Positions 18,262 to 61,298 of a stretch of DNA of 64,000 nucleotides are shown here, piece by piece (the first letter of the stretch is position 1; each line of letters starts with the position of its first letter). Made by a program: the position numbers and the translations under genes. Origin of the DNA: Alphaproteobacteria bacterium (GTDB taxonomy: Bacteria; Pseudomonadota; Alphaproteobacteria; SMXS01); contig JANQQJ010000032.1 in the NCBI GenBank assembly GCA_028284945.1, positions 1 through 64,000 of the forward strand, in the 5' to 3' direction. The notes beneath the pieces were generated by a model. That model had not been told where the DNA came from, ran no database searches, and saw nothing but the letters and a program-made list of their open reading frames with translations.

Positions 18262-19779
18262 ATGAGCGTACCGAGCCAGTCAGACGTTGTTGAGTTCCTA
18301 AGCAGTGGTGCGGCATTCAGCGGCGTCGCGCCGAATCACGTGGAGACCTCGGTGTCTCATGTCTTTATCGGTGACGAGATCGTCTACAAGCTGAAGAAAG
18401 ACATCCAACTCGACTACCTTGACTACAGCACGGCCAGCAAACGCCGCCAGATGTGTGAGCGTGAATTAAAACTGAATCATCTGGCCGCACCATCGCTTTA
18501 TCGGTCGGTTCAATCCGTCAGTTGGGATGGCCATTCCCTGTCTGTTGGCGGCAAGGGGGCTGCGATTGATTGGTTGGTCAAGATGGACCGCTTCGATGAA
18601 ACCATGACGTTCGACCGCTTGGCGCATGACGGCAAGCTGACCCTGCAGCTGGTCGCCGCGCTGACAGAGGAGATTGTTGCCTTTCACGCCATTACAGAAG
18701 AACGCCCGGATATGGGCGGTGCAGCGGAAATGCACCGGGTCAGTCATTTTGTGGCTGAAACGCTGCAAGAACACGGCAAAGGTATTCTGGATTCAGATGA
18801 GATAGCGACATGGGACAGGGCTATTGACAGGGCCTTTGCGCGTTCTTCTGCCTTACTCAACCAGCGGCAGGCACACGGTTTCGTCCGGCAATGTCATGGT
18901 GATATGCATTTGGGCAACATCTGCTTTCACGACGGCAGGCCGACCCTCTTCGACTGTATAGAATTTAGTGACGATATAGCTTGCGTGGATGTGCTCTACG
19001 ACTTGGCTTTCCTATGTATGGACTTGTGCTTCCACGGGTTGGAGCAACATGCCAATCTCGTCATGAACCGGTACTTGAGCGTCACGCGTGATTTCCGCGG
19101 CCTTGATGCCTTTCCCGCATTCCTGTCACTGCGGGCGGCAATCCGCGCGATGACAAGCGCCATCGAGATGCAGGAGAAGAGCACGCTGGACCCCAAAGGG
19201 TGTCACGATGCCGTCAGGCACTTGGACTTTGCCGTGGCGGCACTACAGCGCCCACAGCCGTCCTTGCTGGCAATTGGTGGTTTCTCCGGCAGTGGTAAGT
19301 CGTCTCTGGCGACGGCGCTTGCGACACGTATCTGTGCAGGGGCAGGGGCCGTTGTTGTCTCGAGTGATGTTGTTCGCAAGCGGATCGTCGGAGCTGCACT
19401 GGAAGACAAACTGGATGCTGAAGCCTATTCACCCAGCATGTCTGCAAAAACCTTTACCCGCTTATTTGATGATTGCGATGCGGCATTGGGTGCAGGCCAG
19501 ACCGTGATCGCCGATGCAACATTCTTGCGTGAGGAAGACCGCGATAAAATAGCACAGGTCGCGGAGGACTGGGGCGCGACATTCAGGGGTGTCTGGCTTG
19601 ATACACCGCCTGACATTCTCAGGGCGCGCACCGCAGCGCGTGAAGGTGATGTATCGGATGCCGGGCCATCCGTCGTTGACATACAACTCACACAAAACCT
19701 GGGTACCATCTCCTGGTCCCGGCTTGATGCTGTTGCTGATACACTGACCGAGGACGCTTTAGCCCTTTTGTCAGAGTAG
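18262..19779 (+). CDS. Fusion of aminoglycoside-phosphotransferase-like kinase and P-loop kinase
   Basis: A 505-residue two-domain protein. Residues about 1-330 form a kinase-like fold of the APH group, with catalytic loop CHGDMHLGN near 212 and metal motif LFDCIEF near 232. From about 335 a zeta-toxin/gluconate-kinase-like P-loop domain begins with GGFSGSGKS (near 340-348). It continues with DATFLREEDRDKI and WLDTPPDILRARTAAREGD. The same fusion (COG2187 plus COG0645) is widespread in proteobacteria without a proven substrate. It lies four bases before the Pat-like gene, so a role in CoA-linked or protein-acylation metabolism is possible but unproven. Confidence 0.87.
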   Translation: MSVPSQSDVVEFLSSGAAFSGVAPNHVETSVSHVFIGDEIVYKLKKDIQLDYLDYSTASKRRQMCERELKLNHLAAPSLYRSVQSVSWDGHSLSVGGKGAAIDWLVKMDRFDETMTFDRLAHDGKLTLQLVAALTEEIVAFHAITEERPDMGGAAEMHRVSHFVAETLQEHGKGILDSDEIATWDRAIDRAFARSSALLNQRQAHGFVRQCHGDMHLGNICFHDGRPTLFDCIEFSDDIACVDVLYDLAFLCMDLCFHGLEQHANLVMNRYLSVTRDFRGLDAFPAFLSLRAAIRAMTSAIEMQEKSTLDPKGCHDAVRHLDFAVAALQRPQPSLLAIGGFSGSGKSSLATALATRICAGAGAVVVSSDVVRKRIVGAALEDKLDAEAYSPSMSAKTFTRLFDDCDAALGAGQTVIADATFLREEDRDKIAQVAEDWGATFRGVWLDTPPDILRARTAAREGDVSDAGPSVVDIQLTQNLGTISWSRLDAVADTLTEDALALLSE

Positions 19780-55040: not shown

Positions 55041-55295
55041 ATGAAGATCTGGCAGGTTCAGGAAGCCAAGAACAAGTTTAGTGAGGTGATCCGCGACGCC
55101 CAGTCAGGCGAACCTCAATTCATCACCAAGCACGGCGAGAAGACCGCCGTCGTTTTGTCCGCGGATGAGTATGACCGGTTGATTGGTAAAGTGCGGCCTG
55201 AGACGGACCTCATATCACTTCTCCTGGGCGGCCCGAAGGTCGACGACTTTGAGGTGCCGCGTAGTACCTTGAGATTGCGTGATGTTGAGTTCTGA
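55041..55295 (+). CDS. Phd/YefM-family antitoxin
   Basis: An 84-residue antitoxin. The N-terminal DNA-binding part reads WQVQEAKNKFSEVIRDAQSGEPQFITKHGEKTAVVLSADEYDRL, the YefM/Phd fold. A short C-terminal tail (DDFEVPRSTLRLRDVEF) would wrap the toxin. The stop and the toxin start overlap (TGATG). It would repress its own operon at the direct repeats upstream. Confidence 0.93.
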   Translation: MKIWQVQEAKNKFSEVIRDAQSGEPQFITKHGEKTAVVLSADEYDRLIGKVRPETDLISLLLGGPKVDDFEVPRSTLRLRDVEF

Positions 55296-55705
55296 TGTTT
55301 CTGCTCGATACCAACGTGGTTTCCGAGACACGCAAACCCCAGCCGAATTCATCCTTGTTGTCCTGGATTGAAGCATCGGACCCGTCGACTGTTTTTTTGA
55401 GTGTCATGACCACAGGCGAGATCCGAAAGGGAATCGAACTTTTTCGGACCGCAAATCCTACAGGCGCTGAGGAAATCGAGGTATGGCTGAAAAAAATCGA
55501 GACCGCGTTTGGCGATCGCTTGCTGCCTGTCACAAGAGAGATTGCGGACATGTGGGGAACAATTGCAGCGGGTACAGCGGTTGATGATATTGATATATTG
55601 CTTGCTGCGACGGCCAAAGTTCACGGGCTGACATTGGTCACTAGAAATATCCGCCACGTCGAAGGCCTTGGCGTACCTGTTCTAAATCCTTTTCAGAGCC
55701 CATAG
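55295..55705 (+). CDS. VapC-type PIN-domain toxin
   Basis: A 136-residue PIN-domain ribonuclease toxin. Acidic metal ligands are Asp5 in LLDTNVVSE, Glu in TTGEIRKGIE near residue 44, and Asp in VDDIDILLAATA near 99. The family cleaves tRNA or other RNA when freed from its antitoxin. It forms a two-gene operon with the Phd-like gene. The arrangement and lengths are those of functional pairs, and nothing is truncated. Confidence 0.93.
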   Translation: MFLLDTNVVSETRKPQPNSSLLSWIEASDPSTVFLSVMTTGEIRKGIELFRTANPTGAEEIEVWLKKIETAFGDRLLPVTREIADMWGTIAAGTAVDDIDILLAATAKVHGLTLVTRNIRHVEGLGVPVLNPFQSP

Positions 55706-55723
55706 GCTGCAAGTGAGGAAATG

Positions 55724-56521
55724 ATGCCCCGACGACTATCCTTGAGTATTTTGGCTGCTGCGTTCGCTCTGGCTGCCTGCGGTGCGGATGACGCCCCTGC
55801 GCCACAACCGGTCATGGATACGGTTTTTCAATACTCTACGGTGAACGCGTTGCTCAGTGGTCTCTATGACGGCGACATGACCTTGGCTGAATTGGCAGCC
55901 AAGGGCGATACTGGCCTGGGAACCATTAACGGAATTGATGGCGAATTAATCGTGCTGGACGGAAAGTTCTACTCAGCACTGGCCAATGGGACAGTGCGGG
56001 AATTGAAGCCCGAGGACAAAACCCCTTTCGCGGTGGTCGCCCATTTTCGGCCGGAACGGCAGGCCGGGTTGCCTGACGGGCTGGATTACAAATCGTTGCA
56101 AAGCTTGACGGACCAGCTTGTTCAAGCCCCCAACCACCTGCAGGTGATCCGGATTGACGGCACATTCCCTGAGATGAAGGTGCGCAGCGAACCGAAGCAA
56201 TCGCCGCCCTATCGCCCGTTGGCCGAGGTGCTTGAAGATGAGCAGGTGGTGTTTGAACTCGAGAACGTCACTGGCTCAATGATCGGCTTCCGGATGCCCA
56301 GCTATGTGGCTGGTATCAATGTGCCGGGCTATCACTTTCACTTCATCACCGATGACCGCAAACAGGGTGGCCACGTGCTCGACCTTGAGCTGTCGTCCGG
56401 AACGATCAAGATCGACGATGTCTCGAACTTCGAAATGGTGTTGCCGACCTCTGCGGCGTTTCAGGGAGTGAAACTTGGTGGTGACAGAATGGATGAGATC
56501 GACGCCGTTGAACGGCGATAA
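55724..56521 (+). CDS. Alpha-acetolactate decarboxylase with lipoprotein signal
   Basis: A 265-residue protein of the acetolactate decarboxylase family, which makes acetoin from 2-acetolactate. The N-terminus is a lipoprotein signal (SILAAAFALAACGADD) with a lipobox Cys, so the enzyme would be anchored in the membrane facing the periplasm. The metal site is visible in YHFHFITDDRKQGGHVLDLE (two His, then a third). FYSALANGTVREL and VIRIDGTFPEMKVRS also fit. GAGG favours the second of two adjacent ATGs. Most homologues are cytoplasmic, so export is notable. Confidence 0.9.
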   Translation: MPRRLSLSILAAAFALAACGADDAPAPQPVMDTVFQYSTVNALLSGLYDGDMTLAELAAKGDTGLGTINGIDGELIVLDGKFYSALANGTVRELKPEDKTPFAVVAHFRPERQAGLPDGLDYKSLQSLTDQLVQAPNHLQVIRIDGTFPEMKVRSEPKQSPPYRPLAEVLEDEQVVFELENVTGSMIGFRMPSYVAGINVPGYHFHFITDDRKQGGHVLDLELSSGTIKIDDVSNFEMVLPTSAAFQGVKLGGDRMDEIDAVERR

Positions 56522-57662: not shown

Positions 57663-58874
57663 CTAGCCCACCGCTTTCAAAAACCCCTGTACGTCGCTGA
57701 CGAATATTTCGGGTTGTTCAAGGGCAGCGAAATGGCCGCCCCGGATCTGATGGGTGATCTGGACCACATCGCCATAGGCTTGATCGATATAGGACCGCGG
57801 TGGCAGGGGCGCCAGTTCGCCGGGATATTCGGCAAAGCCGACAGGCACCATGATCTTCTCGCCTTTCGGCAGTACCACATTAGGATTGCCCGCCAGCGAC
57901 CGGTACTGCCACGCGGCGGTGTGGAAGCAACGCCCAGTGATATAGATCATCGCATTGGTCAGCAGCTGATCCTTGGTAAAGGCGTTTTCAATATGGCCGG
58001 TTGGGTGTTGCCCCTCGCGCCGGTCGGACCAGCGGTGGAATTTCTCGATGATCCAGGCGGCGGTGCCGACCGGCGAATCCATCATCCCAAAAGCCAGCGT
58101 CTGAGGCTTGGTGCGTTGAATGGCCTGATAGCCCATCTCGTCGGCGATGCGGACGGCGGCGTTGCGGGCCCAGGCTTTTTCTTCGTCGGTTGTCAGGCGC
58201 GCAACCCCGGCGCCGCCAAACCGGCCAACAAAGTCACCCCCGGCGCGCAGCCCGAACATGTTGAGGTGGACTGCTTGACACGGGCCGCTTTTATCCGCAC
58301 CGAAGTCAAACCCCATCCATGCCGCGATTGATGATCCCCAGTCGCCGCCTTGTGCGACATAGCGGTCGTAACCGAGCACATCCGTCATCAGCTTGTGCAT
58401 GTGGGCGGCCTGGCCACGCGGGTCGAGGGGGCGAGGCGGTTTGCCGGAATAGCCGTAGCCGACGAGCGAGGGAACGATCACGTCACACCCGTCCTCTGCA
58501 TCACCACCAAAGCGTTCCGGATGCGCAAAGCGTTCAACGCATTCCATGAACTCGAAGAAAGATCCGGGCCAGCCGTGCAGCAGGATCAGGGGTGTGGGGC
58601 TGGTGCCGGAGCCTTTTTCATGGACGAAATGCAGGTCGATACCGTCCACGGTCGCGGTAAACTGCGGAAAGCGGTTCAGCCCGGCTTCCGCCGCCCGCCA
58701 GTCAAATTCATCCAGCCAATACTGGCGCAGCTCGCCGATGTAGGCGCCTTCGGTGCCGTATTGCCAGTCAATGGAATCGGTGTCGTCCGGCTGGCTGAAG
58801 CCTTCAAACTCCCTGACGCGCCGCCAGATACGGTCGGTCTCGGTTTGCGGGATGTCGATAGTATAGGGCGTCAT
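57663..58874 (-). CDS. EHN-type epoxide hydrolase
   Basis: A 403-residue epoxide hydrolase with the N-terminal EHN region (YTIDIPQTETDRIWRRVREFEGF), the oxyanion HGWPGSFFEF near residue 105 and the nucleophile Asp in QGGDWGSSIAAW near 180. A C-terminal His in GGHFAALEQPE follows. It opens epoxides to diols by a covalent ester route. It has a paralogue at 60090-61298. The ATG overlaps the stop of an exported ABC-like gene (ATGA), so the two are translationally coupled. Confidence 0.93.
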   Translation of the reverse strand: MTPYTIDIPQTETDRIWRRVREFEGFSQPDDTDSIDWQYGTEGAYIGELRQYWLDEFDWRAAEAGLNRFPQFTATVDGIDLHFVHEKGSGTSPTPLILLHGWPGSFFEFMECVERFAHPERFGGDAEDGCDVIVPSLVGYGYSGKPPRPLDPRGQAAHMHKLMTDVLGYDRYVAQGGDWGSSIAAWMGFDFGADKSGPCQAVHLNMFGLRAGGDFVGRFGGAGVARLTTDEEKAWARNAAVRIADEMGYQAIQRTKPQTLAFGMMDSPVGTAAWIIEKFHRWSDRREGQHPTGHIENAFTKDQLLTNAMIYITGRCFHTAAWQYRSLAGNPNVVLPKGEKIMVPVGFAEYPGELAPLPPRSYIDQAYGDVVQITHQIRGGHFAALEQPEIFVSDVQGFLKAVG

Positions 58875-60022
58875 GGCGCGGACGCTTGTTTCTCCATTTG
58901 TCCGATCCGTGCCGCCAGTCGCTCACAATAGGACTTGCTGCCTTCCGGCCGTGTCGTGCCATCAGAACCGGTATTCATCTGTTCGCTCATGTCCTGCATG
59001 TTGCAGACCGCCTGTTCGAGTTTGAGGATGTCGAGGCTCTTGCCAGCAAATTCGTCGACATTCATCTCGCTGGCGCCGGGAATAGACGCTTTGGGAAACA
59101 TCGGCGCATCGGTCCCATCACCGGTGACGGGCGCGCTGGCAGCCTGGACCCCGGACATCGCATTGTCGTCCTCAAGAATCGTTTTCGAATCCAGATGGGA
59201 AATGGTCGACGCCGACTTCGGATCGGCCGGATTATCTGCCGGCACGTAAATGTGGCTCAGCGACGAGATCTCCCCGGTTCTGCTGGCCTCAATGGCCTTC
59301 ATCAGCGCATCGATATCCAGCACATATGTTGAATCATACGCGGTCGGTTCGTCCATCAAGAGAATTTCAGGGTCGTTTATCAGGGCCCGCCCGATTGCCA
59401 CCCGCTGCTTGGCCGCCCCTGACAGGAAGCGGGTCGGCCCCCTGCCCAGTCCAGCGATCAAGTCGGCGTTTGCCGCAACCTGGTCACCGGGGAGGCCCAG
59501 ATCAGCAAAAGTGATGGCCTGTTGTGCCAGTTCCCGGCGCAGCGCCTGGATCTGTGGATCCAGTTCAGCACCCGGTGCGGCATAGCGCGTTAAGGGTTCG
59601 ATGAACAATATGTCCGACCGGCTGACTGTCGTTTTGCCTACGCCGGTGGGGTCGGTAAGCCCGGTGAGGTCACCAGGGTCGATACTCAGGTCGAGATCGT
59701 TCACGGCGTCATGATCTGAAACATTGGCCGGAACGCGAAGCTGCTGCGCGCCAAGCGAACCGGTTACCGCTTCGTCATCAGCAATGGTGGCGTCATCATT
59801 GGTAGGGCCGCTATCCGTGGGGTTAACGCTCGTCGAGAGATCCATTTTGACCTCGCCGTTCTCGACCTTGGGGGTGGCTTCCAAGGTGACGCCCGCGTTC
59901 GCGCCTTCTCCCGCGATCGCGGCTGCTTCAGCGCTAACCGCCGCCGTCGTGGAATCAGCAAGAGCGCTTGCTCCACTTAAACCCGCCAGTATCATACCGA
60001 TCAACAGTCTGCGGATGGTCAT
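58871..60022 (-). CDS. Exported protein with a shortened ABC-ATPase-like core
   Basis: A 383-residue protein. A signal peptide (MTIRRLLIGMILAGLSGASALA) is followed by an acidic linker to about residue 95. Then comes an ABC-like core: NDLDLSIDPGDLTGLTDP with Walker A-like TGVGKTT (Lys130), possible Q-loop QQ at 167-168, signature LSGAAKQRVAIGRAL (200-213), Walker B ILLMDEPT (220-227) and SLSH (His257). The D-loop reads AYDST. The stretch between Walker A and signature is about 30 residues shorter than usual. The C-terminal tail has two Cys (340 and 366). It starts with a strong GGGAGGGG site. If exported it would have no ATP, so binding of another ligand or a structural role is possible. I know no such family. 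Confidence 0.8.
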   Translation of the reverse strand: MTIRRLLIGMILAGLSGASALADSTTAAVSAEAAAIAGEGANAGVTLEATPKVENGEVKMDLSTSVNPTDSGPTNDDATIADDEAVTGSLGAQQLRVPANVSDHDAVNDLDLSIDPGDLTGLTDPTGVGKTTVSRSDILFIEPLTRYAAPGAELDPQIQALRRELAQQAITFADLGLPGDQVAANADLIAGLGRGPTRFLSGAAKQRVAIGRALINDPEILLMDEPTAYDSTYVLDIDALMKAIEASRTGEISSLSHIYVPADNPADPKSASTISHLDSKTILEDDNAMSGVQAASAPVTGDGTDAPMFPKASIPGASEMNVDEFAGKSLDILKLEQAVCNMQDMSEQMNTGSDGTTRPEGSKSYCERLAARIGQMEKQASAP

Positions 60023-60089
60023 TGGCCCCTCCCATGTCCCTGTCCTTCCAAGACAATAGGCGGGTTGGGGGCCGGATGCCAGTTGGCGG

Positions 60090-61298
60090 CTATCCCCAAT
60101 CCTTTAAGAAGGCTGTTAGGTCCTCCAAAAACAGTTCGGGTTGTTCGAACGCTGCAAAATGACCGCCCTTGGGCTGCTCGGTGTAACGCACTATATTGTA
60201 AGCCTTTTCGCAGTAAGAGCGGGGCGGTACTGGCGCGATCTCACGCGGGTAGGAGCCGACTCCGACAGGAATTTCAACCCGTGCGCCAGCCGGGAAGACG
60301 AACGCATTTTCCACCCGTCCGCCGTAATAGTTCCAGGCCGCTGTGTTGAACCGCCGGGTCACGACATAGAGCATAATGCTCGAGAGTAACTGGTCCTTGG
60401 TATAGGTGTTCCAGAGGCTGCCGCCGGGTTCGCCTTTGCCCGACAAGTCCGACCATGTGTGGAACTTTTCCGTCAGCCAGGCTGCCACGCCCACAGGCGA
60501 GTCCATCATCGCATAGGACAAGGATTGCGGCTTGGTTGCCTGAACCTGGAAATAGGCGCTTTCAAAGGCAAAGCGGCCCATGGCTTCCTGTTCCCAGCGC
60601 TTTTCTTCTTCGGTCTCCGCCGCCAGAATGCCTGCAGCACCCGTAGGGCTCATGCCCTCTCCGGCCGGGCGCACACCGATCAGATTGACGTGGATCGCAT
60701 GCAGTTTGCCGCCTTTGTCCTCCCCGAAATCAAACCCCATCCAGTTGCAGACCAGACCGCCCCAATCACCGCCCTGAGCGACATAGCTGTCATAGCCCAG
60801 CACCTCAGTCATCAGCTTGTCGAAATAGCCGCCCATGGCGCGGGGGCCCATGGGCTTATCCGGCTTGCCGGAGAATCCGTAGCCGATGAGCGAGGGAACG
60901 ATCACGTCGCGCCCGTCGCTGGCGTCCCCTCCATATTTTTCCGGATGGGCGAGGGGGTCGATCACCGGCGTCAGCTCAAGAAATGAGCCCGGCCAGCCAT
61001 GCAGCATGATGATAGGCCGGTTTTCAGGGTTTGAGCCCTTCTCGTGGAAGAAATGGATGTCGATCCCGTTAACCTCGGCGAGAAACTGCGGCATCGCGTT
61101 GAGCGCGGTTTCTTCCCTTCGCCAGTCATAGTCCGTCACCCAATAATCACAGAGCTCGCGCAACACGGCCTGATTGCAGCCATAATCCCAACCCGCATCA
61201 ACCGGCTCCTCGAACCATTCATATTCGTTGATCCGGCGTTTGACACGGTCCAGTTCGGCTTGTGGAATGTCGATCTTGAAGGGACGCGTTTCACCCAT
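60090..61298 (-). CDS. EHN-type epoxide hydrolase
   Basis: A 402-residue paralogue of the hydrolase at 57663-58874. It has EHN (FKIDIPQAELDRVKRRINEYEWF), oxyanion HGWPGSFLEL near residue 100, nucleophile Asp in QGGDWGGLVCNW near 178 and C-terminal GGHFAAFEQPE. It begins ten bases after the stop of an SDR gene on the same strand, so an SDR-epoxide hydrolase step is likely. Two diverged copies in a few kilobases suggest different substrates. Confidence 0.93.
   Translation of the reverse strand: MGETRPFKIDIPQAELDRVKRRINEYEWFEEPVDAGWDYGCNQAVLRELCDYWVTDYDWRREETALNAMPQFLAEVNGIDIHFFHEKGSNPENRPIIMLHGWPGSFLELTPVIDPLAHPEKYGGDASDGRDVIVPSLIGYGFSGKPDKPMGPRAMGGYFDKLMTEVLGYDSYVAQGGDWGGLVCNWMGFDFGEDKGGKLHAIHVNLIGVRPAGEGMSPTGAAGILAAETEEEKRWEQEAMGRFAFESAYFQVQATKPQSLSYAMMDSPVGVAAWLTEKFHTWSDLSGKGEPGGSLWNTYTKDQLLSSIMLYVVTRRFNTAAWNYYGGRVENAFVFPAGARVEIPVGVGSYPREIAPVPPRSYCEKAYNIVRYTEQPKGGHFAAFEQPELFLEDLTAFLKDWG

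Follow-up and report, generated by a model that had tools for sequence, protein, structure and literature searches.

A mosaic open reading frame between two epoxide hydrolase genes

The window, i.e. the whole stretch of 64,000 nucleotides analysed here, carries on its minus strand two epoxide hydrolase genes recognised by Pfam EHN and by synteny: EH1 upstream (60090..61298; 1e-35) and EH2 downstream (57663..58874; 4.6e-33). Between them lies an open reading frame of 383 aa on the same strand, called gene X below (58871..60022, stop codon counted). A Shine-Dalgarno sequence GGAGG (60028..60032, minus strand) is located 5 nt upstream of its ATG, and its stop overlaps the start of EH2 as ATGA. 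The strong ribosome site and the ATGA coupling to an epoxide hydrolase gene, both described in the initial annotation of this DNA, are as reported. Codon usage and position-wise GC content of X (0.63/0.49/0.66) fall inside the range of the adjacent genes. Together, the codon usage, the ribosome site and the ATGA overlap suggest that X is a coding, translated gene.

The first 22 residues (59957..60022, minus strand) resemble a signal peptide in sequence and hydropathy. The N-terminus, MTIRRLLIGMILAGLSGASALA followed by DS, is composed of a basic start, a hydrophobic 12-mer and an AxA-type site ahead of D23; the Kyte-Doolittle mean of the 12-mer (2.16) is the maximum over the whole protein. By the usual rules of thumb (charge, hydrophobic core, AxA site), the product is probably exported. 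An internal ATG at residue 60 is preceded at 5 nt by GAGG, a weak ribosome site, and a leaderless product starting there is conceivable.

The gap between EH1 and EH2 measures only 13-140 nt in six family members (G002, G004, G005, G007, G008, G009), and the two genes are adjacent in G018 as well. In the genome of X, some 1.2 kb separate the two genes, and X occupies this space. Given this difference in spacing, the simplest reading is that X is an insertion in its own lineage; loss of X in other lineages, rather than insertion in one, is possible. We found no convincing mobile-element repeats flanking X and no permease gene beside it. In four of the six short gaps (G004, G009, G007 and G005; L060, L062, L063 and L064) a palindromic element, CGTCATCCCGGCGAAGGCCGGGACCCAG...GGGATGACA, is present; it is missing from G002 and G008.

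Other features were observed on the plus strand of the window. A type II toxin-antitoxin pair (55041-55705) consists of a Phd/YefM antitoxin gene directly followed by a PIN-domain gene. The gene at 55721-56521 encodes an alpha-acetolactate decarboxylase (Pfam, 6.2e-81). Judged by eye, its start, MMPRRLSLSILAAAFALAACGADD, resembles a lipobox-bearing lipoprotein signal, so that the enzyme may be exported. At 18262-19779, an APH-like phosphotransferase domain is fused to an AAA_33 kinase-like domain.

The ABC-like part of X stops at Walker B

The initial annotation saw in X a signal peptide followed by an ABC-ATPase core. The Pfam ABC_tran model, whose use it had proposed, matches residues 108-228 (6.7e-11, 43.4 bits for a cut-off of 25): the ABC similarity is real and ends at Walker B. 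With a model built from relatives, the whole of X scored 1.1e-21 in a search space of one, and the P-loop piece and the signature/Walker B piece were each significant separately. The P-loop piece (residues 105-134, 59621..59710, minus strand), carrying DPTGVGKTT, was recognised by NCBIfam and by a local ABC model (9e-9, residues 90-135). The piece carrying the signature LSGAAKQR and the Walker B ILLMDEPT (residues 187-229, 59336..59464, minus strand) reached 3.3e-16 with a local model. The middle stretch (residues 135-186, 59465..59620, minus strand) has no significant match when taken alone, and its ABC Q-loop region aligns only in the full alignment; an origin of this stretch from AtpA was considered and rejected, no signal being obtained. 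Sequence matches in the PDB for the ABC part are ABC exporters. Since the best NCBIfam ABC models (CydD, DevA, PstB and FtsE) score within 2 bits of one another, the LolD/MacB-type resemblance put forward earlier is unspecific.

The motifs listed initially, TGVGKTT, LSGAAKQR (at residue 200) and ILLMDEPT (DEP at residue 224), are all present. As in ordinary ABC nucleotide-binding domains (NBDs; PF00005), the similarity runs from P-loop to Walker B, and signature and Walker B are 24 residues apart, as in reference NBDs. X keeps the Walker A lysine and threonine, the Walker B DE with its catalytic Glu (ILLMDE), and a well-conserved block LSG..KQRVAI.RALI.DPEILLMDEPT. Unlike these NBDs, X has a signal-like leader, several catalytic motifs are changed or missing, and nothing ABC-like is found past Walker B. 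In its Walker A, DPTGVGKTT, an Asp replaces the first P-loop Gly, conserved in 13/13 reference NBDs, so that the sequence departs from GxxGxGK[ST]. The signature is LSGAA instead of LSGGQ, with an altered glycine, and the A-loop aromatic position is V by alignment. DPQ lines up with the ABC Q-loop in one alignment, and residues 133-199 alone score nothing; a Q-loop would be a remnant at best. Neither the histidine nor the strand of an H-loop was found, that stretch matching AtpD, the F1 ATP-synthase beta subunit. The signature of X (residue 200) follows its first P-loop residue (124) at a distance of 76, vs 84-114 in 12 ordinary ABC domains. The unusually short distance noted before (about 70 instead of about 100) is thus short indeed, at 76 only 8 residues under the lowest of the 12. 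As the defining motifs were looked for and several found changed or absent, X is not classed as an ABC ATPase.

The F1-beta-like part and the join

From residue 227 to residue 300 (59123..59344, minus strand), X resembles AtpD. NCBIfam atpD (TIGR01039) gave 1.4e-10 when the whole protein was searched and 2.8e-11 with the piece; its 40.5 bits are those of a fragment only, below the curated cut-off of 462.85 bits. Pfam ATP-synt_ab gave 0.0016 (residues 229-292), an AtpD model built from relatives 3.8e-15 (residues 225-320, search space of one), and the PDB sequence matches from residues 223-227 on are F1 beta chains. In shuffle tests, none of 200-500 shuffled sequences reached the ABC or the AtpD score of X (z 16-20), which excludes chance for both parts. 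The likeness to F1 beta covers about 72 residues, up to the AVDPL region, with 35% identity; unlike the full subunit, X holds only about one sixth of it, and 34 of the 57 locally invariant residues are changed. No P-loop or Walker B of AtpD was detected in X with significance. Residues 138-154 (ILFIEPLTRYAAPGAEL; 59561-59611, minus strand) resemble the AtpD Walker B stretch (LFFVDNIFRFTQAGSEV in L081), at a level that is not significant (z 1.8, E about 0.04 in a one-model search); as a second AtpD piece, in the expected order, this candidate is a lead only.

The two similarities abut at residues 226-229: DEPTA ends the ABC part and YDSTYVLDIDALMKAIEASRTGEISSLSHIYVPAD follows as AtpD-like sequence. 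From general knowledge of the P-loop fold, we take the join to be a swap: the helix and the strand that follow Walker B give way to the corresponding F1 beta elements. The possible H-loop of the initial annotation falls in this region, where LSHIYVPAD aligns with VQAIYVPAD of F1 beta. Because ABC similarity ends at DEPTA and the AtpD-like sequence starts with the next residues, this supposed H-loop is AtpD sequence.

The AtpD stretch is identical to the AtpD of its own genome at 25/72 positions (35%) vs 25-29/72 for other AtpDs, and is thus no closer to the own copy. Over these positions, the other AtpDs of the class have 61-68/72 residues in common with that AtpD. Compared with its own atpD gene, X is most alike at codon position 2 (0.64) and least at position 3 (0.40; expected 0.31), which places the resemblance at the protein level and argues against a recent DNA copy. 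A recent copy of the genome's own atpD or ABC genes was accordingly rejected: DNA likeness is only short (e.g. 82% over 33 nt with atpD) and third positions are near chance. Judged from these comparisons, X would be old and constrained at the protein level, or fast-evolving, or else derived from elsewhere.

Terminal regions and predicted structure

N-terminal to the ABC part, residues 38-77 (59792..59911, minus strand) may form a secretin-like beta hairpin. This 40-residue stretch weakly resembles the beta hairpin of the secretin C-domain (PF00263; E 0.013), and scores 15.5 bits, under the gathering cut-off of 27.5; unlike secretins, X has no secretin barrel. A secretin of the same genome aligns with the stretch at z 5.8, for a protein picked from the whole genome. 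A beta hairpin (45-54/57-66) is seen in the predicted model. The C-terminal region (residues 301-383, 58874..59122, minus strand) gave no match in Pfam, NCBIfam or genome searches. It is predicted to fold as a helical hairpin (322-350/360-381) bearing C340 and C366, which could be joined by a disulfide. Searches for relatives of the two ends returned none, the best scores being 0.003 (N-end) and 0.005 (C-end); the latter, in G271, lies antisense within an efflux-pump region and was dismissed as chance.

Structure prediction was guided by 13 ABC and 11 AtpD pieces, a shallow, piecewise alignment that makes the model weak evidence. The resulting model lacks compactness. Mean pLDDT was 53.9 and pTM 0.30, with large parts of the core under pLDDT 50; outside the N-terminal beta hairpin, segments of some helices and the C-terminal hairpin (about 80-92), confidence is low. 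A single-sequence model (pLDDT 39.5) was discarded. Foldseek matches in the PDB were led by MacB and LolD (best E 0.19), with a TM of about 0.14 and an rmsd of 18, values that give no support for a fold. The structure check suggested at first thus yielded no intact ABC core, for a model of pTM 0.30 drawn from a shallow alignment. With ABC similarity ending at Walker B, motifs lost and no intact core modelled, the proposal of an exported ABC nucleotide-binding domain is not supported; what stands of it is a signal-peptide-like leader ahead of an ABC-like stretch.

X was found in one genome only

No relative carrying both the ABC and the AtpD parts was found among 60 relatives, 10 family genomes (own one included), 385 genomes of the class, 398 of the phylum and 40 from the order of G018, nor among viral contigs, plasmids and phages. 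Scanning 84,980 species genomes for peptide patterns, a method that detects close relatives only, was also negative. These searches share genomes, and in the large ones scoring was limited to the few top candidates of each genome, so a distant relative could have escaped them. Two candidates (L021 and L022) turned out to be ordinary ABC transporters, and an assignment of X as a defence or phage gene was dropped, the sole match being a generic ABC motif. The literature yielded no description of a protein like X, an exported ABC/F1-beta mosaic, in agreement with the earlier remark that no described family has this layout. The initial annotation had held that its reading would fail if no homologue combined the two parts; none was found here, which points to a lineage-specific fusion.

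Discussion

We class X as a chimeric orphan gene. The account we favour, tentatively and at somewhat less than even confidence, is that of a lineage-restricted, probably exported chimera whose NTPase-derived part does not use ATP and whose role is carried by its terminal modules. X would have arisen by insertion between the two epoxide hydrolase genes, in its own lineage only. In its protein, the signal peptide and a new N-terminal part would be followed by a degenerate piece of an ABC ATPase, from P-loop to Walker B, then by the helix-strand-loop of F1 beta and finally by the helical hairpin that bears the two cysteines. Translation would start from the strong ribosome site of X itself and be coupled to EH2; the product would then exit the cytosol, probably via Sec, with its leader cut near A22. 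Outside, it may act through the new terminal modules, the NTPase-derived part serving as a spacer or scaffold without hydrolysing ATP. Against this account counts the fact that X is known from one sequence. The well-kept signature/Walker B block, Walker A K/T and Walker B DE are also odd, being unexpected in an inert spacer. A more far-reaching reading, which we regard as improbable, is that X is an exported P-loop hybrid selected for an extracytosolic function, its F1 beta part standing in for the ABC helix and strand downstream of Walker B.

Low model confidence over much of X, its presence in one genome only and the loss of residues invariant in ABC and AtpD proteins (34/57 AtpD columns) would also fit a non-functional frame, a drifting patchwork of coding scraps that is open by chance and has no role. 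Such a frame would hardly be expected to combine 383 stop-free codons with a signal-like leader, a strong ribosome site and an exact ATGA coupling; neighbour-like codon usage, best conservation at codon position 2 and a confidently predicted C-terminal hairpin also speak against it, and we consider it unlikely. We are equally doubtful about horizontal transfer from an exported family of an unsampled lineage, with the N and C ends as the family signature and the NTPase middle as a variable part. The near-equal distance of the AtpD stretch from its own AtpD (25/72) and from others (25-29/72), the predicted beta and Cys hairpins at the two ends and the insertion itself would agree with this origin. 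It is countered by host-like codon usage, by the lack of flanking mobile-element repeats and by the searches with the ends, which brought up relatives of neither (N 0.003; C 0.005, antisense to an efflux gene).

Restriction to a single genome and the unusual, motif-rich mix of unrelated NTPases might likewise betray an artefact, either a mis-assembly or a sequence absent from the living organism. Identity between the pieces of X and any relative reaches only about 25-40%, which means that X is no splice of sequenced genes. It lies exactly between two genes of a conserved neighbourhood, its composition and its start and stop signals fit, and the assembly has a completeness of 99% and a contamination of 0.5%; an artefact therefore seems quite improbable. 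Least credible of all is a working ABC-type ATPase, acting in the cytosol from the internal start or outside the cell. In favour of it, X retains Walker B together with much of the signature helix, and ATG60 has its weak ribosome site. Against activity stand the missing A-loop aromatic, first P-loop Gly, second LSGGQ Gly and H-loop, the doubtful Q-loop, a model without an intact core and the lack of an adjoining permease gene. ATP, moreover, is absent outside the cytosol, which counts against a working exported ATPase.

New proteins are known to arise through chimeric orphan genes, but the bacterial fusions described so far mostly unite two neighbouring genes that can still be recognised. Gene birth from fragments is known in bacteria, including deletion-born fusions, in which the loss of intervening DNA links the beginning of one ORF with the end of a second (PMC12803068). 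Like the deletion-born and other bacterial fusion genes, X is a new gene made from pieces of unrelated genes; unlike the deletion-born ones, it is an insertion, and it has diverged deeply from all its sources. Two ancient, unrelated cytosolic NTPases are here joined behind an export signal, in a protein deeply diverged from both. If X is real and expressed, it would provide a concrete case in which to ask how mosaic bacterial genes originate, and whether parts of highly conserved enzymes can find a second, purely structural use beyond the cytosol.
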